A stretch of 64,000 nucleotides of DNA, taken from positions 62,001-126,000 of the forward strand of contig NZ_LR215048.1 in NCBI RefSeq assembly GCF_900660745.1, read 5' to 3'. Positions 48,494 to 64,000 of this stretch are shown here, piece after piece. The position numbers and the translations under genes were made by a program. The notes below the pieces were generated by a model. That model saw only the letters and a list, made by a program, of their open reading frames with translations, did no database searches and was not told the origin of the DNA. The DNA comes from Haploplasma axanthum. GTDB lineage: Bacteria; Bacillota_I; Bacilli_A; Acholeplasmatales; Acholeplasmataceae. The first letter of the stretch is position 1. Every line of letters begins with the position of its first letter.

Positions 48494-50707
48494 TTAATTG
48501 TTTTGTAAAGCCCTATTGTTTTTAAGAAGTGGATAGATTTTATCATCACTTACTAATAAATCACTTAATCTTTTAAAATACTTAATTTTATTTATTTGTT
48601 CTAAATCAACTTCTGTAGTTTTCGGATATTTTTTCTTTAGGTTTCTAAGTGAAATCAAATATGGTTTATAATCTAAATCATTAATCTTTCTAACATCATC
48701 TAAAATTAAATCTTGAATTCGATTATCAATTACATATGTTGGTTCACTACTTAACCCATGAACACCGAAATATATATCATCTTCAGTAAATAAACCAAAT
48801 AAATCTCCAATTGTTCTATATAAATCAACATGTCCACGCGCTAGTTTTTGATTCCCAACTAATAATCCTTTATTGATTCCAGTTTCTTCATCAACTACAT
48901 TACTTGGTGCATATATAAAAGCAATCGTTTGTTGAAGCATTCTTCTTTCTTCTAGAAGAGAAACATCTCTATTAAATAAAATACTTAAATCACCATTCTT
49001 CAAACTACTACCATGATCACTATAAAATACATAAACTGTATTACTATCTATCTTAGATTCATTTGTTTCAATATCAAAGAAATATGACATAATAACTTCA
49101 TCTAAATATTTTGCAAATTCAACATAACGCTTTGTTATACCATGCATCTTATTATAATTATTTATATTAAAAGCTTGCTCTGTAAACGGATTAAACATAA
49201 ATGGTGTATGTGGAGTCATAAATATTGAGAATACCATGCTTTTTTTACTTGCGAGGTTATCAGCAGCAATTGTATCCATTGTTACATCTGCAAGTTCATA
49301 TTCACTTGGCCAAGGACTTACAGTTTTTTTACCTCGATATAGTGGTTGTTCTTCCATTCTATATTTCAAGAAATCTTTTGAATTATCAAAACTTCTACCC
49401 GAATTATTTTTAGCAAAATCATCAATCGTATAATAATTATTAAATCCAATTAATGCTTCCTTATCTTCAGTTCCAAGATAGACTCTATCACGATTATAAA
49501 AATTTGCATGATCAGCATGAATTACGTGTGAATTATAACCTAACTCATTAAACCTTTTTGGTAATGTATCAATTTGATAATTATTCTTTTCATAATCACG
49601 ATAAAATGTTGAATATCCATTCATATATAATCCCGTTAAAACTGAAGCTTCAGCATCAGAACTAACTCCCATACCTACCGATGTATAATAATTTTCAAAA
49701 ACAAAACTTTCTTCAAACAATTTATTTAAAAAATGAAATCTTTCTCTAATTTCTGGTATTTCCCATAAAAAGTAGTTCAATGATTCTAAGTGAACTAAAA
49801 CAATATTTTTATCTTTTAAAACACCAGTTAGCGAATCTTCATTATTTAAGTTTAATAATTCAGTATTCTTTAAAATACTATTTTCTAATGATAAACTATT
49901 TGAATATACCTTATCATCAATAAAATTCTTATAATTAGCTTTATTTTTATTATATTCGCCATATGCATTAATTAAATCAGTATCACTTTCTAGTTCAAGA
50001 GTCTTACGATTATTAGTTACAAAATCAACACCTAAAAATTCAGCAACATAATAAGGATATACACCATAGTTTTGTACTCCCTTTGTACTAATTAATGATC
50101 CAATCAAAAAATCATCATTTTTTAATTGAACAACAAATGACATTGTTGAAACAAAGAATATTAAAATATAACTTAATCCACCAATCAAATATTGTTTCGG
50201 CTTAAAATTAAAAATTTTCTTTTCATGAGTTTTCTTTAATTCTTTATTAAATCTAAAAAAGTATACTAATAAAACAATTAAAGGTAAAAAAACAATAATT
50301 CGGTAATACACAAAAAGCTCAACCATAATTTCTTTAAACATTCCATTCGATATTCCTTCGGCAGGATTTTTAAATATATCAAGGGCATTTGTTGCAAATG
50401 CTGTTCCATAATATAAGTTAAAAAAACCAAAAGCAAATACTGCAAAGTTTAGAATCGAAGTCACTACCAACAATGAAATTAGTTTAGTCTTATCTTTTTT
50501 AGCGATTATAAAAACTATTAAAACTATTAATAGTAAAAAAGAAAAATTACCAAGTATTGCTGTAACTTCTCCGATAAATGTTCTAGGTAGTGGTGAAATA
50601 TATCTATTTAAGTATTGTGATGTTAAAAAATACGTATTAATTATATTTAAACCAAAAAATAGAATTATGAAAGCAATAAAAGAATCTTTCTGTTTTTTAA
50701 GATTCAT
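48494..50707 (-). CDS. LtaS-like sulfatase-fold membrane enzyme (phosphoglycerol transferase family)
   Basis: Five N-terminal hydrophobic helices (about 10-195) are followed by an outward sulfatase-fold domain, the architecture of lipoteichoic acid synthases. VLVHLESLNYF has the metal glutamate, and SDHGSS a late metal site. At the nucleophile position LtaS has threonine in GQGKTSDSE; here the aligned stretch is GMGVSSDAE, with serine. About 737 residues, a little longer than LtaS. A GTG at 50716 is an alternative start. It may place glycerol phosphate or another headgroup on a glycolipid; the exact product is unknown. Confidence 0.85.
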   Translation of the reverse strand: MNLKKQKDSFIAFIILFFGLNIINTYFLTSQYLNRYISPLPRTFIGEVTAILGNFSFLLLIVLIVFIIAKKDKTKLISLLVVTSILNFAVFAFGFFNLYYGTAFATNALDIFKNPAEGISNGMFKEIMVELFVYYRIIVFLPLIVLLVYFFRFNKELKKTHEKKIFNFKPKQYLIGGLSYILIFFVSTMSFVVQLKNDDFLIGSLISTKGVQNYGVYPYYVAEFLGVDFVTNNRKTLELESDTDLINAYGEYNKNKANYKNFIDDKVYSNSLSLENSILKNTELLNLNNEDSLTGVLKDKNIVLVHLESLNYFLWEIPEIRERFHFLNKLFEESFVFENYYTSVGMGVSSDAEASVLTGLYMNGYSTFYRDYEKNNYQIDTLPKRFNELGYNSHVIHADHANFYNRDRVYLGTEDKEALIGFNNYYTIDDFAKNNSGRSFDNSKDFLKYRMEEQPLYRGKKTVSPWPSEYELADVTMDTIAADNLASKKSMVFSIFMTPHTPFMFNPFTEQAFNINNYNKMHGITKRYVEFAKYLDEVIMSYFFDIETNESKIDSNTVYVFYSDHGSSLKNGDLSILFNRDVSLLEERRMLQQTIAFIYAPSNVVDEETGINKGLLVGNQKLARGHVDLYRTIGDLFGLFTEDDIYFGVHGLSSEPTYVIDNRIQDLILDDVRKINDLDYKPYLISLRNLKKKYPKTTEVDLEQINKIKYFKRLSDLLVSDDKIYPLLKNNRALQNN

Positions 50708-50816
50708 GTTAACCACATCTCTTTCGTAACCTTCTATTTATTATACAATATTTTCAGATTAATTTTTTCGTTTTCAACATGTTTTACACTAAATCAATCC
50801 ATAAACTGCAAATAAA

Positions 50817-52056: not shown

Positions 52057-52779
52057 ATGGAATTATATATAAAAGATAATAAAGAAGCTGTTAATAACGA
52101 AGTTAGCTCTCTTATTATTGATTTAGTTAAAAAAAACAAGAATGCAATCTTAGGATTAGCAACAGGATCAACACCAATTGGGGTTTATAACGAATTAGCA
52201 CTTGATTATAAAAATAATAAAACTGATTATTCAAATGTTAAAACTGTGAATCTTGATGAATACATCAATCTTCCAAAAGAACATAGTCAATCATACTATA
52301 GTTTTATGAACCAAAACTTATTTTCAAAAATAAATATTAAAAAAGAAAATACATTCCTTCCTAATGGAAATGGTGAAAATCATTTAGAATCTTGTAGCGA
52401 ATATGAATTAATCCTTAAAAACCATAAACCTGATATTCAAATCTTAGGAATTGGTTCTAATGGCCATATTGGATTTAATGAACCTGGAACTAGTTTTGAT
52501 AGTACAACACATATTGTTGAACTAAAAGAAAGTACAAGATTAGACAATGCTCGTTTTTTTAATTCACTTGATGAAGTTCCAACTCATTCAATAACTATGG
52601 GTATTAAATCAATACTTCAAGCTAAAACAATTGTTTTAATTGCTTTTGGAAAGAATAAAGCAGATGCAGTTTATAAAATGATTAAGGGGCCAATAACTGA
52701 TGATTGTCCTGCTTCTATTTTACAAACTCATCCAAATGTCAAAATATTCTTAGATAAAGAAGCTGCATCATTATTATAA
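52057..52779 (+). CDS. nagB: Glucosamine-6-phosphate deaminase
   Basis: It converts glucosamine 6-phosphate to fructose 6-phosphate and ammonia. GLATGSTPIGVY binds phosphate, NLDEYINL holds the proton-transfer aspartate, and GIGSNGHIGFNEPG holds the catalytic histidine and glutamate. 240 residues, the short Gram-positive form. It is the downstream step for products of GH20 and NanE encoded at 55.7-58.1 kb. It is transcribed alone, with an AAAGGGG site and a terminator. Confidence 0.96.
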   Translation: MELYIKDNKEAVNNEVSSLIIDLVKKNKNAILGLATGSTPIGVYNELALDYKNNKTDYSNVKTVNLDEYINLPKEHSQSYYSFMNQNLFSKINIKKENTFLPNGNGENHLESCSEYELILKNHKPDIQILGIGSNGHIGFNEPGTSFDSTTHIVELKESTRLDNARFFNSLDEVPTHSITMGIKSILQAKTIVLIAFGKNKADAVYKMIKGPITDDCPASILQTHPNVKIFLDKEAASLL

Positions 52780-53658: not shown

Positions 53659-54549
53659 TTATTTAATTGAAGCTTTGTAAATTGAATCAACAGCAACCTT
53701 CAAAGTTTTATCGAATTCTTCTGCTGTTTGTGCATCACTTAACCCTTCAGATAAAGCTCTTGAGAATGACGCGATTACTCCACTATTTTTAGATAATATT
53801 TCATTTGCTTTTTCTCTTGAATATCCACCTGATAAAGCTACAATTCTTACTAGTCTATGATCATTTAATAATGGTTTATATAGATTAGCAACTGTTGGAA
53901 GTGATAATTTAAAGATTACTAAAGTTCTTTTATCTAGAAGTTTTAAATTTCTTTCTAATTCTTCTAAAAGAATTGCTTCTGCTTCTTTTTTATCTTTAAT
54001 ATTAATATCAACTTCTGGTTCAATAATTGGAACTAAACCATATGATGCAATTACTTTTGCAAGTTCAAATTGTTGTTCAACAACTTCTTTGATTCCTTCT
54101 TTGTTTGCTTTCTTAATAACTGAGCGCATTTTAGTTCCAAAGATATTTCTTTCAACTGCACGTTTTAATAATAAATCTAGACCATCAATAGGTTTCATTA
54201 GTTGAACACCATTTTCATTGATTTCTTCTAAACCTTTATCAATCTTTAGAAATGGAACAATACCTTCAATATTCCATAAATAATCCGCTGTATACAAACC
54301 ATCAATTTTACGATCCATCGTGTTTTCAAATAAAATCGCACCTAAAATGTGTTCTTTTGTAAATGATGGACTCTTAATGATTCTTGTACGCATCTCGTGA
54401 ACTAATCTAAACATCTCATCATCATTACTGTATCTTGATTCATTGATACCATAAAGTTTTAATGCCTTTGGTGTACTTCCACCACTTTGATCTAAGGCAG
54501 CAATAAATCCTAGACCATTTTTCATTCTATCTAATTGTACTTGATTCAT
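53659..54549 (-). CDS. fda: Fructose-bisphosphate aldolase, class I
   Basis: Schiff-base aldolase of glycolysis. [16 protein letters not shown] near the start, [23 protein letters not shown] and [16 protein letters not shown] closely follow the 296-residue Staphylococcus class I enzyme. The frame opens at 54579, but the ATG at 54549 with AAAGGAGAGG is the true start by alignment, giving 296 residues. It follows the SGNH gene by 60 bases with its own possible -10 box, so it may be transcribed both alone and with the glycan operon. Confidence 0.95.
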
Positions 54550-54570
54550 AAAATCCTCTCCTTTAGATAT

Positions 54571-54576
54571 ATTATA
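54571..54576 (-). promoter_or_regulatory. Possible fda -10 box
   Basis: TATAAT on the minus strand 22 bases before the fda start; the -35 region is weak. Confidence 0.35.
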
Positions 54577-54609
54577 CACCTAAATTATTAAGATTTCTTG
54601 TAAAGTGAA

Positions 54610-55671
54610 TTAAAGTTCTTTATTTTTATTGTTTGTATCAAGGACTTCTCTAATTTTTTTATAGTAATATTTTGCCATTTCCATAGAACCTAAATCATTT
54701 GGATGAATTCCGTCAACAGTCATTTCTGTAAAGTGTTTCTTAAAGACTTTTGAACCATCTAAAAAGTAAATATTTTCCCCTTGTTGTTGATAGTCTTTAA
54801 CAACTTTTTTCAACCATCTTTCATAATACTTTCTTTTTTTGATTTTTTCTTTGTTATATAAATCAACTGCAAAGTGAATTCTTGAAGCAATTATAATCGG
54901 AACATTAGGATGATACACCTTATATGTTTCAATAAACAATTTTAAATTCTTTTCTAATCTATCATCAACACCAGCATTAGCTTGTGCGTCAATAATAAAT
55001 AAATCTGGATTTTCAACTCTAGCAATTGCTTCTGCAAGTTCTTTCTCACAAAAGGCAGAACCTGAGAATCCATAATTAAAAATCTCACAATCCATCCATC
55101 TTGAAATTACATTAGTATGTAACATTCCTGGTCTTGAAACACATCCACCTTGTGTAATACTAGTTCCATAAATAACTATTCTTTCTTCGTTTCTAACGTA
55201 GTTAGGAACTAAGTATGCATCATCTTCAATACCTACTTCAATTTGTTTTGCCCCCATATAGAGTGGCAAATTAAGAATTAGTTCTTTATCTTCATTTGTT
55301 TCAAATCTTCCTAAATCATATTCATATTCAGTTAGTTTAGAATTATAAACTGTTGAATTATGAAAAACATATTCGTTAAAACTTTGATTATAAACATATA
55401 AATCTAGACCACACTGACCAAGTGCTGACATATGATTCATATTAGCAACACTATCAATTACAACTTTAATATTGATTTTTGCAGAATTTGTTTTAAATCT
55501 AGCTTGTATTCCAGAACTGTTTGTAGCTAAGTAAGCAACATCTTTATTAAACTCTCTTATTTTATCTCGATCTTCTTTTAATAGTCTTCGATATCCTTCA
55601 TCTTCTAAAGCAATTGAACCATATATTTTGAAATGGTCTTCATTTTTCAAATCAATATATTTCATTTTCAT
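54610..55671 (-). CDS. SGNH/GDSL hydrolase (sugar esterase-like)
   Basis: A two-domain protein of 353 residues: an N-terminal beta domain (about 1-155) and an SGNH hydrolase. Block I with the serine is IVIYGTSITQGG; block III is IDAQANAG; the catalytic Asp-His pair is in VDGIHPND. This arrangement is that of carbohydrate esterases removing acetyl groups. No signal peptide. It starts three bases after GH20 in the amino-sugar operon, so it may deacetylate the same glycan inside the cell. Confidence 0.87.
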   Translation of the reverse strand: MKMKYIDLKNEDHFKIYGSIALEDEGYRRLLKEDRDKIREFNKDVAYLATNSSGIQARFKTNSAKINIKVVIDSVANMNHMSALGQCGLDLYVYNQSFNEYVFHNSTVYNSKLTEYEYDLGRFETNEDKELILNLPLYMGAKQIEVGIEDDAYLVPNYVRNEERIVIYGTSITQGGCVSRPGMLHTNVISRWMDCEIFNYGFSGSAFCEKELAEAIARVENPDLFIIDAQANAGVDDRLEKNLKLFIETYKVYHPNVPIIIASRIHFAVDLYNKEKIKKRKYYERWLKKVVKDYQQQGENIYFLDGSKVFKKHFTEMTVDGIHPNDLGSMEMAKYYYKKIREVLDTNNKNKEL

Positions 55672-55674
55672 ACA

Positions 55675-57384
55675 CTAAAATGGTTTAACAGAAAAAGCAA
55701 TATCATTATACTTAAGTGATAAATACTGATCTTTAATAGCTTTTTCTTCTAAAACATCTATGATATCTCCTTTTTGATAATTTTTAACTATATAAATCAT
55801 TTCTTCAAATCTAATTATTTGTGTTCCAAGTCTTGATTGAACTACTTCTAATCCAAACGTTTTATAACGGCCATACCACATTTCTTGATAATAAGCATTC
55901 AATTTTCTAACTAGTTTTATTATTTCTTGATATGTTTTTATTAATCCTTCATTTAATTCTTTATTCTCATATGATTCTAATAATGTTTTTCTTGTTTCAA
56001 GTTTTAAAAGATTAATTTTCATAATCAAAAACTCGAAAGGCGTTTTCTTTAAACTCAAATTTTTTAAAATCTCATTTTGCTTAACAATATGTTGCTCAAT
56101 TTCTTCGTAACTATTCCCCGTAAAATTATTCAAATAGATTGCTAGTAGAGGATCATCCCATAATAAACCTACTTGACTCATTATTGTTTCATTAATCTTT
56201 GTTTTGTTTATTGCTATATTATAATCATCATTAGTAATTTCTTTAAAGACTTTTTTATTTGCTATTCCTCCAAAATAAAGATCACACGATATTTCATAAA
56301 CTCCAAGCAAACTAGTCTTATGATCAGCATATGCTCCATCATCCATCCACTGTGTAAGAATAAAGTCTTTAACACTTGTTTTCAAAGTTTCTTTTAAATG
56401 CATTTTAGCTGTTCTATCTGTTTGGTATTTATCGTATGAAAATCTTGTCCAAACCCATGTTCCAGATGCGAATACTGTTTTTCTTTTTGTATCAACATGA
56501 TTTTTAAGCATTGAGGAAACAATTTTATCATTATGATTGTAATAATCCCAATAAACTAATGTAACATTTTCTGGGATTCTTGAAACTAACTTATCATCTA
56601 AAACAATATTTGAATCATAATAATATTCAATAGGACTTAAAAATCTAAAGAACATATCTGACCAAATCATTACTTCTTTAAAACCTTCTTTTAAAGCCAT
56701 TTCATTAACAATATTTAAATGGTTAGTAAATATTTCCATTGGATCTTTATAACCATTTTTTTTATAAAAAGCTCCAAATCCTAATCCAAATGTTTCATCC
56801 ATACCAACATGAATTTTATTTGTTTTAAAGTTGCTTTTTGCCCATTCAATCATTTTTTTGATTAAAGCATATGTCTTTTCTTCTTCAACAATTAAAACTT
56901 GAGATTGATCTTTATATGGTGAAGAATTTGGCCAGCGTAGAAACTGTCCATGATGACCTAAAACTTGAATTGAAGGAACTATTTCAATTTCAAATATTTC
57001 AGCATATTCAATAATCGCTTTTAATTCATCTTTAGTATATCTACCTCTCATATACCCAAAAGTTGGATATCCATCCAACTCATAAACATCTTCAATATAA
57101 AGCCAAATTTGGTTTACACCCATTAAAGCTTGTTTATAGATTAATTCTTTAATGTAAGAAAGCTTAAAAACGGCACCTCTTGATAAATCAAGCATAGTGC
57201 CAAATGAATCTAGCGTCATATGAAGTTTCTTTTTATTATTAATAAGCAAAACTAAACCTTCTGAAACTGTTTTGTAGTATAGTTTATTATCTACCACTTT
57301 TGTTTCATCACTTTTTATATATTCGCAAATATTATTTTTTATTAAAATACCTTTTCTATTTAATTCTTCAATTGCTTTCTTCAT
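55675..57384 (-). CDS. Glycoside hydrolase family 20-like beta-N-acetylhexosaminidase
   Basis: A TIM-barrel enzyme of 569 residues. The GH20 catalytic Asp-Glu pair is D196-E197 in KIHVGMDETFG. Nearby features are MGVNQIWLYIEDVY, EIEIVPSIQVLGHHGQ and a late tryptophan-rich segment (TQWMDDGAY). There is no signal peptide, so it acts in the cytosol on imported oligosaccharides. The C-terminal third is helical. It lies between nanE and the esterase gene. The sequence does not tell which linkage is cleaved. Confidence 0.87.
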   Translation of the reverse strand: MKKAIEELNRKGILIKNNICEYIKSDETKVVDNKLYYKTVSEGLVLLINNKKKLHMTLDSFGTMLDLSRGAVFKLSYIKELIYKQALMGVNQIWLYIEDVYELDGYPTFGYMRGRYTKDELKAIIEYAEIFEIEIVPSIQVLGHHGQFLRWPNSSPYKDQSQVLIVEEEKTYALIKKMIEWAKSNFKTNKIHVGMDETFGLGFGAFYKKNGYKDPMEIFTNHLNIVNEMALKEGFKEVMIWSDMFFRFLSPIEYYYDSNIVLDDKLVSRIPENVTLVYWDYYNHNDKIVSSMLKNHVDTKRKTVFASGTWVWTRFSYDKYQTDRTAKMHLKETLKTSVKDFILTQWMDDGAYADHKTSLLGVYEISCDLYFGGIANKKVFKEITNDDYNIAINKTKINETIMSQVGLLWDDPLLAIYLNNFTGNSYEEIEQHIVKQNEILKNLSLKKTPFEFLIMKINLLKLETRKTLLESYENKELNEGLIKTYQEIIKLVRKLNAYYQEMWYGRYKTFGLEVVQSRLGTQIIRFEEMIYIVKNYQKGDIIDVLEEKAIKDQYLSLKYNDIAFSVKPF

Positions 57385-57396
57385 TTTAAAGTCCCC

Positions 57397-58086
57397 TTAT
57401 TTACATGAATTAATTATCTCAACATATCTAGCTGTAATTTGTTGTGGACGTGTAATTGCTCCACCAATTACCACTGAAAAAGGATTAAACTTAAGAATTT
57501 TTTTCAAATCATTTAATTCTGTTATTCTACCTTCAGCAACAATTGGTAAACTAACACTCTTTGTTAAATCTTCAACTAATTTAAAATCAGGTTCTTTTAT
57601 TTGTGGCGAATAACTTGTATAACCAGAAAGTGTTGTAGAAATAATATCAAAACCTTTTACTTGAGCAATAATACCTTCTTCTAATGTTGATATATCCGCC
57701 ATTGCAAGTACACCATTATCATGTAAAAACTTAACTTTTTCTTCTAGACTTACGCCATCATTTTGATCTCTATCTGTCGCATCCATTGCAACAATATCAA
57801 CACCAACTTCAACTAATTCCTTAATTTCTTTTAGTGTAGGAGTAATATATCTTTCTGTATTTGGATAATCTCTCTTTATTAATCCAATAATTGGTAAATC
57901 AACAACTTCTTTGATTGCTTTGATATCCTTAACACCGTTCGCTCTAATAGCAACAGCTCCACCTACTTTTGCAGCTAAAGCCATTCTACTCATAATAAAG
58001 TCACTATGGAGTGGTTCATTTTCTTGAGCTTGACACGAAACTATTAGTCCGCCCTTAATTTTTTTCAATAATTCTTCTTTACTCAT
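57397..58086 (-). CDS. nanE: N-acetylmannosamine-6-phosphate 2-epimerase
   Basis: It converts ManNAc-6-P to GlcNAc-6-P. The N-terminal GGLIVSCQAQENEPLHS, the lysine in IGLIKRDYPN, the glutamate-containing DATDRDQNDG region and PIVAEGRI match NanE. 229 residues. No sialate lyase (nanA) or ManNAc kinase (nanK) is in the window, so the substrate could come from sialic acid or a ManNAc-containing polymer. It is between the unrecognised protein and GH20 with gaps of 1 and 12 bases. Confidence 0.94.
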   Translation of the reverse strand: MSKEELLKKIKGGLIVSCQAQENEPLHSDFIMSRMALAAKVGGAVAIRANGVKDIKAIKEVVDLPIIGLIKRDYPNTERYITPTLKEIKELVEVGVDIVAMDATDRDQNDGVSLEEKVKFLHDNGVLAMADISTLEEGIIAQVKGFDIISTTLSGYTSYSPQIKEPDFKLVEDLTKSVSLPIVAEGRITELNDLKKILKFNPFSVVIGGAITRPQQITARYVEIINSCK

Positions 58087-58087
58087 T

Positions 58088-59068
58088 TTACCTCTCCTTT
58101 AACTTCTCATCAACAAATGGAGTAATCGTAATTGATTCTCCTCCATTATTTAATTTTTTTATTTTAAATGATTCTTTATTTGGACATGCCATTTCAACTT
58201 TTCTATTTTCAGTCATTGGAACACGGCATACCATTCCTTCTATTCTTCTAAATAAATATGTGTTTTCCCATACTGCTTCTGTAACTTTTGCCTCTGTTTC
58301 TTTAACAATAAATCCCTCATTACCATATTGATCAATTGAATTAACACGTTTAAATTCTGCTTTATTAGATCCATGACCTTCTGAATAAAATAACGGACTA
58401 TAAAAAACTCTAGGTTTATCTTTAAGTTTAAATCCTTCTCTAATTTTTACATATTTTTCATTTGTTGTTTCTTCAATTAATTCTATTCTTAATTGAAGAT
58501 AATCATTAATTGGAGAATAAACAGCCATCTTAATTTTATCTCCTGGAAAATAATAAAAATCAAAGTCATGCGGATTTGCAACATTCCATGAATTGACATT
58601 ATTTCTAGTTACATTTCCATTCACGTCAAGACAATCTGAATATATGTATCTCCAAAATGGACGGTATGCAATTTTAGGAGTTCCATAGTTTAACTCTTCT
58701 TCATCACCTTTAAATCGATAACCAGAATTAAATCCTAATCCAGCATCACTTTCTGACAAAGAATGTCCACCCATATATACTGAAGGATTATCTAAAAATC
58801 TATCAAAATATACTCGTTTATCATTTCCAAATCTTGCTTGATCCGGAATAAACTCTCCAAGAGTTATTGTTCCCTCAATTCCTAGCCATGTATCCTTTGA
58901 TGAAAAAACTTTTCTATACCATGCTCCTAAAAAACAAGCAGGAGTTTCACAAACTTTTTCTTCATTTTCAATATTCTTATCATATATTGGTGCGTCAATA
59001 AAATCTCTACTATCAGCATAGTTAGAATCTCTTATTGGAATAACAATTTTTGATAAATCTTTTTTCAT
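58088..59068 (-). CDS. Unrecognised 326-residue protein, paralogue of the C-terminal domain of the 62.9-64 kb gene
   Basis: I cannot name this family. The protein is rich in aromatic residues and short strands, suggesting a beta-sandwich. Signatures shared with the edge gene are AWYRKV, IEGTI, PSVYMGGHSLSESDAGLGF, RPFWRYI, YYFPGDKI, YSPINDYLQLRIELIE, SEGHG, FKRVNSIDQYGNEG and WENTYLFRRIEG. It has no signal peptide and starts with the bare domain, so this copy is cytosolic. Its position between the FAD enzyme and nanE (one-base overlap and one-base gap) suggests carbohydrate binding or lyase/hydrolase activity on the same glycan; that is inference. Confidence 0.8.
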   Translation of the reverse strand: MKKDLSKIVIPIRDSNYADSRDFIDAPIYDKNIENEEKVCETPACFLGAWYRKVFSSKDTWLGIEGTITLGEFIPDQARFGNDKRVYFDRFLDNPSVYMGGHSLSESDAGLGFNSGYRFKGDEEELNYGTPKIAYRPFWRYIYSDCLDVNGNVTRNNVNSWNVANPHDFDFYYFPGDKIKMAVYSPINDYLQLRIELIEETTNEKYVKIREGFKLKDKPRVFYSPLFYSEGHGSNKAEFKRVNSIDQYGNEGFIVKETEAKVTEAVWENTYLFRRIEGMVCRVPMTENRKVEMACPNKESFKIKKLNNGGESITITPFVDEKLKER

Positions 59069-60630
59069 TATTTTACACCTTCTTTAAATACATAATCAGG
59101 CCACTCTAATTGTACACCTTCTAGAATTAGTTTATCCTGAAAATCTTTTATTGATTTTTTATTCTTATAGACTTCGTGTGGAGTATAGTTATTCTCTAGA
59201 CAATAACTTACAAACAAACCAGCTACTTCTCCAATATTCCATTCAATTGGATGAAGTCTATAACATCCATTAGTAACATGAGTAGTGCCAATATTTTTAC
59301 AACCTGCAATCAAGTTTTGTTTTGTTTCTGGAATTAAAGCTCCAAGTGGAATTTCAAATGGCCATGTTTCATCAAAAAAATATGTTTTAGTCTCTGTTGT
59401 CATATGAAGATCAATATGATATAAACCAACACCAACACTATCAAAATATTTAGGTTTTTTTAGCGCATAACGTTTATTAATATCTTGTTCTTTAATTGTA
59501 TACAGTGCTTTTATTCTTCTTGATTCTCTAATATACGGTGCTTTAGCAAGCCCTGTTGAAGTTCCTAATGTTTTTGGAGATAACATTATTTCAGGATAAC
59601 CAAATCCCTTTCCATCACAACGTTTTGCTTCTGTTTGTAACCAATAAATTAATGATAGTGTTAACTGTTTAGCTGCATATTTATGATATTCAATATCGTT
59701 ATTTTCAATAATATTTCCTAAGAAATAATCATTTTGCGGCCAGTTTAATAGTGTAGTTGGTAAAACATTCTCTTGATTCTTAAAATGTTTAGGTTCTAAT
59801 ATCTGACGATATGTAAACATTGCAGGAGTATTTTCGTATTCAGTCCCCTTAGTTGCGAACATACTAAATAATCGCTTACTATTAAGATCTAATCCAGCAG
59901 CATACCAACTTAAAACTGATTCATTAAAAGGCATTTGATAACTTTTAAATAAGTCATACATCGCTGGTTTTTCAATTAAATGATTTCCACCCTCATCATA
60001 ACTTATTGCTGCAACCCATGTTATTGGTTGCATATCAAGTGGATGTGCAATTTTTGGAGCATGTGGTTCATTATATTCATCAAAGGATTCAGCACCAGTA
60101 ACATATTTTGTATTTGTTATTGGTAATAAATCACCATTATCAGTTGCATCTATAAAAAACTTAGAACTAACTGTTACATATTTATCTTCTGTTAAAACAG
60201 TAATTTCATAAATTTTGAAATCATCAAAGTTTGCTTTAATAACTTTAGAATTCAACCATATATCTAAATTATTAAAAGGCTCTAACATCTCATTTAATAA
60301 TTTATGAGCTAATACAGGTTCATGAGCATTCTTACTAACCCATCCATTACCTGGATTAAAAACTTCTTTACTTTTTAATTCATCAATAATGTTTTCATGA
60401 TTTCGATAATATTCTCTTACTTTGTTACGATATTCTCGATATGTCTTTGTACATCCAGTTTTTTCAATAAAATCATGTTCATCACTAGGAACTCCTTGTG
60501 AGGTTAATTGTCCACCAATCCAATCAGTTTCTTCAATTAACAATACTTTATGATTTTTCTTTGCTAAACTATATGCACTAAGTACTCCACCTAAGCTACC
60601 GCCCACTACTACTGCATCATATTTTTTCAT
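59068..60630 (-). CDS. FAD-dependent oxidoreductase (FAD_oxidored family)
   Basis: A 520-residue flavoprotein. The dinucleotide-binding motif VVVGGSLGGVLSAYSLA starts at about residue 7, then LLIEETDWIGGQLTSQG and FIDATDNGDLLP, all typical of the FAD_oxidored family seen in polysaccharide-use loci. No signal peptide or redox-active cysteine pair. The reaction is unknown; oxidation of a sugar is plausible. It overlaps the next gene by one base. Confidence 0.88.
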   Translation of the reverse strand: MKKYDAVVVGGSLGGVLSAYSLAKKNHKVLLIEETDWIGGQLTSQGVPSDEHDFIEKTGCTKTYREYRNKVREYYRNHENIIDELKSKEVFNPGNGWVSKNAHEPVLAHKLLNEMLEPFNNLDIWLNSKVIKANFDDFKIYEITVLTEDKYVTVSSKFFIDATDNGDLLPITNTKYVTGAESFDEYNEPHAPKIAHPLDMQPITWVAAISYDEGGNHLIEKPAMYDLFKSYQMPFNESVLSWYAAGLDLNSKRLFSMFATKGTEYENTPAMFTYRQILEPKHFKNQENVLPTTLLNWPQNDYFLGNIIENNDIEYHKYAAKQLTLSLIYWLQTEAKRCDGKGFGYPEIMLSPKTLGTSTGLAKAPYIRESRRIKALYTIKEQDINKRYALKKPKYFDSVGVGLYHIDLHMTTETKTYFFDETWPFEIPLGALIPETKQNLIAGCKNIGTTHVTNGCYRLHPIEWNIGEVAGLFVSYCLENNYTPHEVYKNKKSIKDFQDKLILEGVQLEWPDYVFKEGVK

Positions 60631-60650
60631 ATTTATCGCTCTTTCTACTC

Positions 60651-61379
60651 TTAAATATTTTTCTTCAAAAATTCGTATGAATCATTCAACATTTCAGGTG
60701 TTGATTCATGACCTGTATCATACATTTTTAAAATCGTTGTTTCAGGTAATTTCTTATGTAACTCTTGACTAAATTTAGGATATACAACTTCATCTTTTTC
60801 ACCAAGCGCTAAAAATATTAACGTATTTTTTAATCTTTCGCTATTTCTTAACGGATCATGATTTTCATATTCATGAAGTCTATCCACTACTATTTCATCA
60901 GACCATTTAAATCTTTTTTGTCGCTCTTTATAATATTCAATGAATGATGGTGAGCCAACTAATGTTACTGCGGCTTTTAACTCATCAGTTATTGTTGATA
61001 AATAAAAAGTTATTCCTGACCCCATTGATACTCCATATGCATAGAAACAATCATGCTTAATACCCTTTTGTTTACTAAAAACATTTTCCCATAACATTTT
61101 TGCATCTTTTGCTGTTTGCATTTCTATATCAATAATATGTTGATATTTTTCTTCGTTCGAAATATTTGCAAACCAAGGTGCCATTCTCTCACCATGAAGA
61201 TGTGCATCAACAGCAACAACATAAAATCCTAATTCCGCTAATTTTTCACCACGTCCCATTAAAACATCTTTATTTCCAGTAAATCCATGGAAAAAGAAAA
61301 CTAATGGTTTATCTAAATCATTTTCTAATTCATATGTAACAAGTGGTATTTGTTTAATTACTTTTCTTTGAATTCTCAT
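60651..61379 (-). CDS. Alpha/beta hydrolase (esterase)
   Basis: A 242-residue cytosolic hydrolase. The oxyanion segment is FFHGFTGNK, the nucleophile S118 in YGVSMGSG, and the Asp and His are in GEKDEVV and DTGHEST. It overlaps the DUF4127 gene by four bases. In context it may remove acyl groups from the imported glycan; a general peptidase/esterase is also possible. Confidence 0.88.
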   Translation of the reverse strand: MRIQRKVIKQIPLVTYELENDLDKPLVFFFHGFTGNKDVLMGRGEKLAELGFYVVAVDAHLHGERMAPWFANISNEEKYQHIIDIEMQTAKDAKMLWENVFSKQKGIKHDCFYAYGVSMGSGITFYLSTITDELKAAVTLVGSPSFIEYYKERQKRFKWSDEIVVDRLHEYENHDPLRNSERLKNTLIFLALGEKDEVVYPKFSQELHKKLPETTILKMYDTGHESTPEMLNDSYEFLKKNI

Positions 61380-62893
61380 TTTATTTTAACCTCTAAACCT
61401 GTTTCAAACATTCTATTCCAAGGTGAATATATTTTTTTTATTTCTGGTTTAATATTTTTTAAAACTAGATTATCTTTAATAAACATCTCTAATTCTTTTT
61501 TTATTTGTTGAACGACTAAACCTTGTTTTCCATCTAGCAGAAAATAATGATTTGGTTTTACTAATGTTTTAGCAATTCTACTTCTAACTATTGAGCAATA
61601 TCCAATATCTTCTACATATCTAAGTGCTAAAAACTCAATGATTTCTTTTCGATTTGGATAAAGCCATGAAAAGATTCCTTGTGGTATAGCAGTTCCTAAT
61701 GTGTTTGAAGATGTATTCCATCCTGCATATGCAGATACTTTATATAATAAATTTTTTTGTTTTAATAATTTAAATAAATGAATATCTCCACCATTAGCAT
61801 AAGCAACATCACCAATAATAACAGGCTTATTAATAAAATTAATACAATAATCTGCAAATTCTACAAACTCTACTAACGTTCTAAATGAATCATACTCTAT
61901 CGTTCTTATATTAATACTTCCTGCTTCACGCATTTTTTCTGGTGGAGTATTAACAAGTAAAACTAAATCTGCATTTTTAAAATCATCAATTATTATTCCA
62001 CCGGCAGCTAAAACTTGATACTTAATTGTTTCTGCTAAATATCTATCTTCATATAAAGGAATAATTTGACCATCACCAACACTTGAATATTTTAAATAAA
62101 CTGTTGGCTTCTTATTTTCAAAGTTTAAAATCATTCTAGATAATAAGGTATTAGTAACTTCATCAGCCCCTGGATACATATAAACTTTAAACTCTAAATT
62201 TTTATCTTCAATCATTTTTCTGGTTTTAATTTGATCTAACGCAGTAAAACCATATGGTGATGAATCATCTTGTGGAATAATTGCAAAATCAATAACCTCT
62301 TCTGAAACTAAATTAAGAAAATCATCATTAATTTCGCCGTTAATATTTCTTCTATTAACATAGTCTTCTAAATATTCAATTGGAAGTATTTTTTTAATTC
62401 TTTCAAAATCTTTTGTTTCTTCTTCAGTTATAATCCCTAAATCTTTTTTATGTTCATAAACTCCATACAGATGAATTTCTCTTCCATGAGTTTCATAATA
62501 ATCTGGTTCCTCTTCTGAACTTGAATATTTTGGATTACGCATTAGTAGTTGATATCCATAAATTAAAACTTTTGGATTATTCTTTTTTATTTCTTTTAAA
62601 ACATTAATTCTTTTGATTAACTCATTTTTAGTATCATGATGCAATCTTGATGGAACAATACCACCATAAAGGATTGTATCTAATGCAATGACAAGCCCAT
62701 CAGCATCTTTCGATTCTTTTGTTAACCATTCTATTAATTTATTGATGTTACCTGGAGTTTTCTTATTTCCCATATATTCCATTGGAGGTGCCATAACTTC
62801 GTATGGCATCCCCTTTGTCATATATTGGTTAAAATAATAATTACAAGGTCTTTCATCAAGAGGAATAACTATAATTTTTTTCACCTTAATCAC
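61376..62893 (-). CDS. DUF4127 family protein
   Basis: A 505-residue protein of DUF4127. The start KKIIVIPLDERPCNYYF, then ALDTILYGGIVPSRLHH, RNPKYSS and QDDSSPYGFTALDQ are the conserved blocks. The fold resembles enzymes with a Rossmann-like core, but no activity is known to me. It probably belongs to the amino-sugar operon, as it is flanked without gaps by the edge gene and the hydrolase. No signal peptide. Confidence 0.85.
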   Translation of the reverse strand: MIKVKKIIVIPLDERPCNYYFNQYMTKGMPYEVMAPPMEYMGNKKTPGNINKLIEWLTKESKDADGLVIALDTILYGGIVPSRLHHDTKNELIKRINVLKEIKKNNPKVLIYGYQLLMRNPKYSSSEEEPDYYETHGREIHLYGVYEHKKDLGIITEEETKDFERIKKILPIEYLEDYVNRRNINGEINDDFLNLVSEEVIDFAIIPQDDSSPYGFTALDQIKTRKMIEDKNLEFKVYMYPGADEVTNTLLSRMILNFENKKPTVYLKYSSVGDGQIIPLYEDRYLAETIKYQVLAAGGIIIDDFKNADLVLLVNTPPEKMREAGSINIRTIEYDSFRTLVEFVEFADYCINFINKPVIIGDVAYANGGDIHLFKLLKQKNLLYKVSAYAGWNTSSNTLGTAIPQGIFSWLYPNRKEIIEFLALRYVEDIGYCSIVRSRIAKTLVKPNHYFLLDGKQGLVVQQIKKELEMFIKDNLVLKNIKPEIKKIYSPWNRMFETGLEVKIK

Positions 62894-64000
62894 CTAATTC
62901 TCTTTTGGTCGTGTTATTGCTGTTTCTGGGTGAATTGAAACACTTTGTCCACCTGTAATTGGGTTAATAGCTGTAAAAGTATATGCTGTTTGATCTGGTG
63001 CACCAATTGTAGAAGCTCTATTTTCATTAAATGGAACTCGGTATAGCTTTCCATTAATCTTTCTATGTAGGTAAACACTTTCCCAAATAGCAGTTTTCAC
63101 TTCTGTTTCAGTGTGAATTGCTGTTTTACCTTCATTGGCAACTTGGTCAATTGCATTTACTCTTTTATATGTTGCTTTAATTGTTCCACCATGTCCTCCA
63201 GATCTAAATACTGGACTAACAAAACTTTCTGGATCTTTCCAATTATTATCTTTTCTAATTTTAATTGAACTTTCTAATTTTGATTTTTCAATTACTTCAA
63301 TTTGTAATTGCAAATAATTAACACTTGGACTATATATTATTATTCTAAGTTTATCTCCTGGTAAATAATAGTATTGAGTATCACCAAAATACCAGTTTGC
63401 AATCATATTTGTTTTTGATGACCCAGTCGCTGATACAGAATATCTTCTTCCTTTAGCTAAATCATATGTTCCTTCATCTTTTTCGACAGTTGTTATATAT
63501 CTCCAAAAAGGTCTAAAAGCAAATGATCCGTTAGTAACTCGTTCATTACCATTAACTAAGACTTGTGCAGGTTTAAAACTTAATCCAACATCACTCTCTG
63601 TTGCCGCATGTCCTCCCATATAAATTGAAGGGTTATCTAAGTTTCTAAAATTAGGATCAATATTGAGTGAACTATCAAATGCACCTTCATAACGTCTAAT
63701 TTTAAGTTCTGGAAGTATAACAGTACCTTCTATTCCTACCCAATAATCTTCAGCTGATGTAACTTTATAATACCAAGCTCCACCAAAGACTTTTTGATCT
63801 GCTGGTTTTGCTGCTTCATTTTCAATTGGATTAGACCAAATTGGAAATGGTGTAATTACTTCATAAGTATCTCTTACTATTACTTGTTTGGTTAAGATTG
63901 TTGACTGATTACGTGCTTTATCAAAAACATAAAATTTAACAGTATATGTACCAGTTTTTGTTAAATCAAGTTCTGATTTATCAATTTGAATATTTCCAGT
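62894..64000 (-). CDS. Large Ig-like-domain protein with C-terminal unrecognised domain (5' end beyond the window)
   Basis: The frame is open from the right edge to the stop at 62894; an internal ATG at 63619 is not the true start. Translation from 64000 gives an Ig-like (DUF5011-type) repeat, seen as SELDLTKTGTYTVKFYVFD and QVIVRDTYEVITPFPIW. A domain of about 320 residues follows that is homologous to the whole 58088-59068 protein (AWYYKV, IEGTV, PSIYMGGHAATESDVGLSF, FRPFWRYI, YYLPGDKL, YKRVNAIDQVANEG). The Ig-like part implies secretion or surface display. Function unknown; glycan binding or cleavage fits the context. Confidence 0.82.
   Translation of the reverse strand, partial: TGNIQIDKSELDLTKTGTYTVKFYVFDKARNQSTILTKQVIVRDTYEVITPFPIWSNPIENEAAKPADQKVFGGAWYYKVTSAEDYWVGIEGTVILPELKIRRYEGAFDSSLNIDPNFRNLDNPSIYMGGHAATESDVGLSFKPAQVLVNGNERVTNGSFAFRPFWRYITTVEKDEGTYDLAKGRRYSVSATGSSKTNMIANWYFGDTQYYYLPGDKLRIIIYSPSVNYLQLQIEVIEKSKLESSIKIRKDNNWKDPESFVSPVFRSGGHGGTIKATYKRVNAIDQVANEGKTAIHTETEVKTAIWESVYLHRKINGKLYRVPFNENRASTIGAPDQTAYTFTAINPITGGQSVSIHPETAITRPKEN

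Follow-up and report, generated by a model that had tools for sequence, protein, structure and literature searches.

Neprosin (PF03080), a prolyl endopeptidase of the glutamic class with an E188/E297 dyad, is an acid protease that plants secrete (PMC9343461). For the eqolisins (G1, PF01828), the dyad of aspergilloglutamic peptidase was described as Gln B24 and Glu B110 (PMC8147669). HC7 of Bacillus cereus (8pmu, 8pn3) carries a CBM5 and is a mucinase with di-glutamate catalysis (PMC13003899). DUF1080 proteins (PF06439), or 3-ketoglycoside hydrolases, were proposed to cleave keto-glycosides by hydrolysis or elimination after LacABC-type dehydrogenases (PMC9007349). In the PDB, YncM and CPAVM1 (Bacillus subtilis) are titled as an uncharacterized protein (4hfs) and as a protease (8xai), respectively. 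ConA-like beta-sandwiches are also common in lectins and CBMs.

Described here is a real, previously undescribed protein family of about 290 residues with an outside/inside design, located in a HexNAc glycan locus of Haploplasma axanthum. The family, its two forms, its neighbourhood, its predicted fold and its conserved residues were read directly from the tools. Two copies are encoded in the window (the whole stretch of 64,000 nucleotides that was analysed), both on the minus strand, and a third lies beyond it (Table 1). Copy 1 is a standalone protein with no further domain, and its maximal 14-residue hydropathy of 0.51 gives no signal peptide. Copy 2 is cut by the window edge, and its length was read from the whole genome; it comprises a lipobox (LAAC), one Ig-like domain (PF16403, residues 67–121) and the family domain (residues 131–437). 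An earlier note on this DNA had proposed that copy 1 is homologous to the C-terminal domain of this right-edge protein, which was borne out by BLASTP (312 residues aligned at 40% identity, 218 bits, E 3e-73), and the sequence blocks named there were present in both proteins. The same note had described Ig-like repeats on copy 2, where a single recognisable Ig-like domain was found rather than several; distant relatives carried one to three (PF16403 or aBig_2). Its interpretation was supported in part, namely for an unrecognised family, two forms and a link to glycan genes, DUF4127 and FAD_oxidored.

Table 1. Family copies and neighbouring genes (window positions unless marked as contig).
Feature	Position	Strand	Remarks
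Copy 1	58088..59068	minus	326-aa cytosolic member of the undescribed family; without signal peptide
Copy 2	62894..64000, on to about 64237 outside the window	minus	447-aa surface lipoprotein
Copy 3	contig 143988-144905, about 18 kb past the window	minus, same-strand cluster	305 aa, without signal peptide
DUF4127 protein (PF13552)	61376..62893	minus	505 aa; adjoins copy 2; 527 bits
Alpha/beta hydrolase (esterase-like)	60651..61379	minus	Pfam Abhydrolase_1, weak NCBIfam PRK10566
FAD-dependent oxidoreductase (PF12831)	59068..60630	minus	292 bits
NanE, ManNAc-6-phosphate 2-epimerase	57397..58086	minus	PF04131, 225 bits; 1 base from copy 1
GH20 beta-N-acetylhexosaminidase	55675..57384	minus	PF00728 and PF18088; no signal peptide seen by eye
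SGNH esterase with GxDLY N-terminal domain	54610..55671	minus	PF14606, PF14607
Class I aldolase-like protein	53659..54579	minus	PF00274; pathway membership uncertain
NagB-like glucosamine-6-phosphate deaminase	52057..52779	plus, opposite strand	PF01182

Sensitive profile and structure searches returned fold neighbours and no known family by sequence, in agreement with the claim that the family was unrecognised. Across 25 members, Pfam gave no meaningful match (lowest E 0.042, in one member); this included the profiles of eqolisins (PF01828), neprosin (PF03080) and DUF1080 (PF06439) as well as GH16, PL7 and other ConA-like CAZyme profiles. For both window proteins, no family matching the domain was found in NCBIfam or PHROGs (best PHROG E 0.16), and searching PDB sequences with the family profile gave no convincing match. 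The family defined here is described in none of the libraries searched. A phage or structural protein had been named as the refuting case and was looked for, but no relatives were found in phages, viral contigs or PHROGs, and the best viral fold match reached a TM-score of 0.29 (by query length). A search of plasmids likewise gave no match. Relatives were present in 10 of the 101 nearest genomes and, in a sample of 395 genomes of the class Bacilli, in 21. The nearest named relatives were Haploplasma modicum and Acholeplasmataceae MAGs, as retrieved by a contig search with a single sequence, which found close relatives only.

The gene cluster runs on the minus strand. In downstream order it begins with GntR, copy 3, the phosphodiester glycosidase NAGPA, a lipoprotein-like open frame of 679 aa with an Ig-like domain, DUF624 and a 968-aa solute-binding protein (SBP). 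Next come two permeases, an NHL-repeat protein, a membrane protein that looks Yip1-like by eye, DUF5696, a second pair of permeases and a 490-aa SBP, and the last part consists of copy 2, DUF4127, the alpha/beta hydrolase, the FAD oxidoreductase, copy 1, NanE, GH20 and the SGNH esterase. Between copy 2 and GH20, neighbouring genes either overlap or are at most about 20 bases apart. A ROK kinase gene is located beside GntR. The locus combines two ABC importers and a NAGPA-type glycosidase with GH20, esterases, the FAD oxidoreductase, DUF4127 and NanE. Both importers are of carbohydrate type (each an SBP with two permeases; L004:4245-17355), and no ATPase gene was noticed between them.

Gene order was largely kept across Acholeplasmatales and rearranged in other families of Bacilli. 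In the survey of gene neighbourhoods suggested by the earlier note, both proteins that it had singled out recurred near the family: within four ORFs of 44 copies, DUF4127 was found 25 times and the FAD oxidoreductase 21 times, along with the alpha/beta hydrolase (16), GntR (16), NanE (13) and NAGPA (13). The tie to DUF4127 also appeared at the level of genomes. Among the 395 Bacilli genomes, DUF4127 occurred in 33, the family in 21 and both in 18 (Fisher p 2e-19, a value that overstates independence, as the genomes are related; the pattern spans several families). DUF4127 was present without the family in 15 sampled genomes and can therefore, for its part at least, do without the family. Its structure model was very confident (alpha/beta, pLDDT 94, pTM 0.93) and had no clear match in the PDB (best Z 8.8), for which reason no function was borrowed; a literature search found no paper on DUF4127.

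Inside and outside forms were compared across the family. Among the 22 long forms, nearly every intact one had either a lipobox or a hydrophobic N-terminus, whereas short forms (n = 25) had no lipobox in any case and lower N-terminal hydropathy (0.2–1.9). In a maximum-likelihood tree the two were split with three changes, against 16 in shuffles, and exported and cytosolic forms largely grouped apart. The exception is copy 3 with its orthologues, which are short but fall within the long forms and therefore probably lost export. Copy 3 itself is kept beside GntR and NAGPA, without a signal peptide and yet grouped with exported forms. Both forms were present in 16 of the 21 genomes surveyed; H. 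modicum and a few other genomes had a single form, so that the pair is not obligatory. H. modicum encodes the cytosolic form alone, with the order SGNH-NanE-copy1-FADox-hydrolase-DUF4127-GntR-ROK kept and transporters absent from the stretches read, which suggests that the cytosolic step can stand alone. Conserved neighbourhoods, the tree split and the joint occurrence of both forms agree with the earlier proposal that an inside and an outside form are linked to glycan catabolism. Both copies may meet the same ligand before and after import.

An AlphaFold model of copy 1 (pLDDT 84, pTM 0.85) was almost entirely beta, a beta-sandwich. Among known folds, this predicted structure best matches the sandwich of glutamic-peptidase type, a likeness that by itself shows no function. 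By VIA-align, the model was closest to YncM (4hfs; Z 16.3, 190 residues, 2.9 A) and CPAVM1 (8xai; Z 16.2), which matched over 184–190 residues at 2.7–2.9 A but showed 11–12% identity to the family, no sequence match and a length about 100 residues shorter. Neprosin (9qr8; Z 15.0, 211 residues, 3.5 A; Z 14–15 overall) resembled it in fold, but the E188/E297 dyad was not recognised in the family. Eqolisins (e.g. 1y43) ranged from Z 10.5 to 14.6, with scytalidoglutamic peptidase (2ifw) at Z 14.6 over 187 residues (3.0 A), and share with the family a GDxIxxxV strand at an equivalent place. The HC7 mucinase (Z 12.8) shares the fold and the glycan context but only 7% identity. The putative two-domain sugar hydrolase 4qhw, which we take to be a DUF1080 protein, scored Z 12.7, GH16 lichenase Z 10.9 and PL7 about 8. 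Foldseek returned the same leading families with modest TM-scores (0.36–0.45 by query length). Neither glutamic peptidases nor DUF1080-type enzymes had been foreseen by the earlier note, which had suggested a carbohydrate-binding, lyase or hydrolase family; each of these activities may still apply.

The predicted fold resembles that of glutamic peptidases, but their catalytic residues were not recognised, which makes an uncharacterised family of enzymes or of sugar-binding proteins probable. A divergent glutamic-peptidase relative cutting peptides or glycopeptides, in the manner of HC7 and neprosin, would fit the best structural neighbours (YncM/CPAVM1, neprosin and eqolisins, Z 14–16) and the likeness to HC7, a di-glutamate mucinase (PMC13003899). 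We regard it as quite improbable, given that the cytosolic copies stand among sugar genes rather than peptide genes and that the profiles do not agree and the residues, judged by hairpin geometry, appear not to. In hhalign comparisons with eqolisins (two fungal and two Burkholderiales), probabilities of 1–6% were no higher than controls with shuffled or reversed alignments could reach; the score of 20.3 was exceeded by three of 150 column shuffles and by the reversed alignment (22.7), and neither eqolisin membership nor sequence homology is therefore claimed. Likenesses of motifs noticed by eye (SIYMG/SIWVG, PGD) were not taken as evidence of homology. A search for the eqolisin family in 149 Bacilli genomes gave one weak match below the cut-off.

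For the comparison of residues, the chain B sequence of aspergilloglutamic peptidase was used, which agreed letter for letter with the PDB. Its residues 3..173 were aligned with family residues 91..316, which placed Trp B10 near Y98 (47/47). A shorter hairpin in the family puts Gln B24 near D108 (47/47), judging by the aligned ranges and hairpin geometry, not by superposition; the place of the catalytic Gln thus appears to be taken by an invariant Asp. Placed in the same way, by hairpin geometry and not by superposition, the eqolisin Glu strand corresponds to about residues 237–247, where K240, V242 and D246 show no variation and 39 of 47 sequences have E238; D246 is the sole invariant acid there, and no invariant Glu was seen. 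In total, 54 of 293 columns were at least 90% conserved, many of them polar (47 sequences, down to 29% identity), and D108, R140, N159, R210, K240 and D246 were invariant in all 47. Judged from the alignment, so many conserved polar residues would fit catalysis better than a plain binding module, although they can also serve binding. These invariant residues make the function of the family directly testable.

A non-catalytic carbohydrate-binding protein, with an outer copy that captures glycan on behalf of the SBP and an inner copy that senses or holds it, is a serious rival, if an unlikely one. The ConA-like beta-sandwich is the fold of many lectins and CBMs, the outer form carries fused Ig-like domains and is often encoded next to an SBP gene, and copy 3 lies between the GntR regulator and NAGPA. 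Such a role sits less easily with a cytosolic form that stands alone without another domain, with the very high conservation of many charged residues and with best fold neighbours that are mostly hydrolases. Equally serious is a specialised cleavage of keto-glycosides as the second step of an oxidative glycosidase pathway, in which the FAD oxidoreductase would make the keto-glycoside and the family would cleave it by hydrolysis or elimination. The oxidoreductase gene near 21 of 44 copies, often adjacent, the likeness to 4qhw and an oxidoreductase neighbour in sugar pathways, as in the DUF1080 precedent (PMC9007349), speak for this step. It was nevertheless judged improbable: PF06439 gave no match, no extracellular oxidoreductase that could serve the exported form was seen, and glutamic-peptidase-type folds outscored 4qhw. 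The family further differs from DUF1080 proteins in that its partner is a FAD_oxidored protein and that it has a cytosolic form.

The reading that we tentatively favour, at somewhat below an even chance, is that the family is an enzyme acting at two stages in the use of a HexNAc-containing, probably decorated or charged glycan; we infer catalysis, as the nearest folds to the confident model appear to be hydrolases of the open beta-sandwich kind. The lipoprotein form would sit on the outer face of the membrane beside the solute-binding protein of the ABC transporter and act on the substrate there by cutting or trimming it, or would at least hold it. The product would enter through one or both ABC systems, and the cytosolic form would work inside with the FAD oxidoreductase, DUF4127, the esterases and GH20. 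Acid/base chemistry might be provided by acids that vary little or not at all (D108, at the eqolisin Gln place, with D246, E106 or E251), and the conserved basic residues K240, R241, R136, R140, R79 and R210 could touch an anionic group. This would release ManNAc or ManNAc-6-phosphate, which NanE would turn into GlcNAc-6-P; from there, NagA and NagB would lead to fructose-6-P.

Judging from the neighbours alone, the substrate likely contains HexNAc, perhaps ManNAc. NanE occurs in the cluster of this genome and in those of many relatives; the genome also encodes NagA twice and a NagB-like protein, which is probably a downstream step. Sialic acid catabolism through NanA was considered and rejected: a search of the genome, which is 99.7% complete, found no protein with PF00701 (NanA/DapA), while one was present in 14 of 14 control genomes, and ManNAc-6-P therefore does not come from the classical NanA route. 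Because NAGPA, NanE and GH20 are present, the wall teichoic acid linkage unit (ManNAc-GlcNAc-1-P) was considered as a candidate substrate. The conserved outside/inside pair and NanE without NanA point to an uncharacterised HexNAc glycan route in Bacilli, including the wall-less Acholeplasmatales. It is conceivable, if rather doubtful, that the family represents a new carbohydrate-active enzyme family with a glutamic-peptidase fold and a different, Asp-based catalytic site, whose matched outside/inside pair serves an oxidative HexNAc-glycan pathway; with the FAD oxidoreductase and DUF4127, this pathway would supply NanE with ManNAc-6-phosphate and need no sialic acid lyase.

Other proteins were noted in passing. 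A membrane sulfatase-family protein (PF00884; window 48494-50716) has an LtaS-type-like layout and is ordinary. Large Ig-like-domain surface proteins (L103:5694-8843, L072:4107-6146) accompany the cluster and gave sub-threshold matches to the GH85 C-terminal domain. A 229-aa protein (L102:7317-8006) had no Pfam match; several distant clusters have ORFs of this size, likewise unmatched, between the SGNH esterase and DUF4127.
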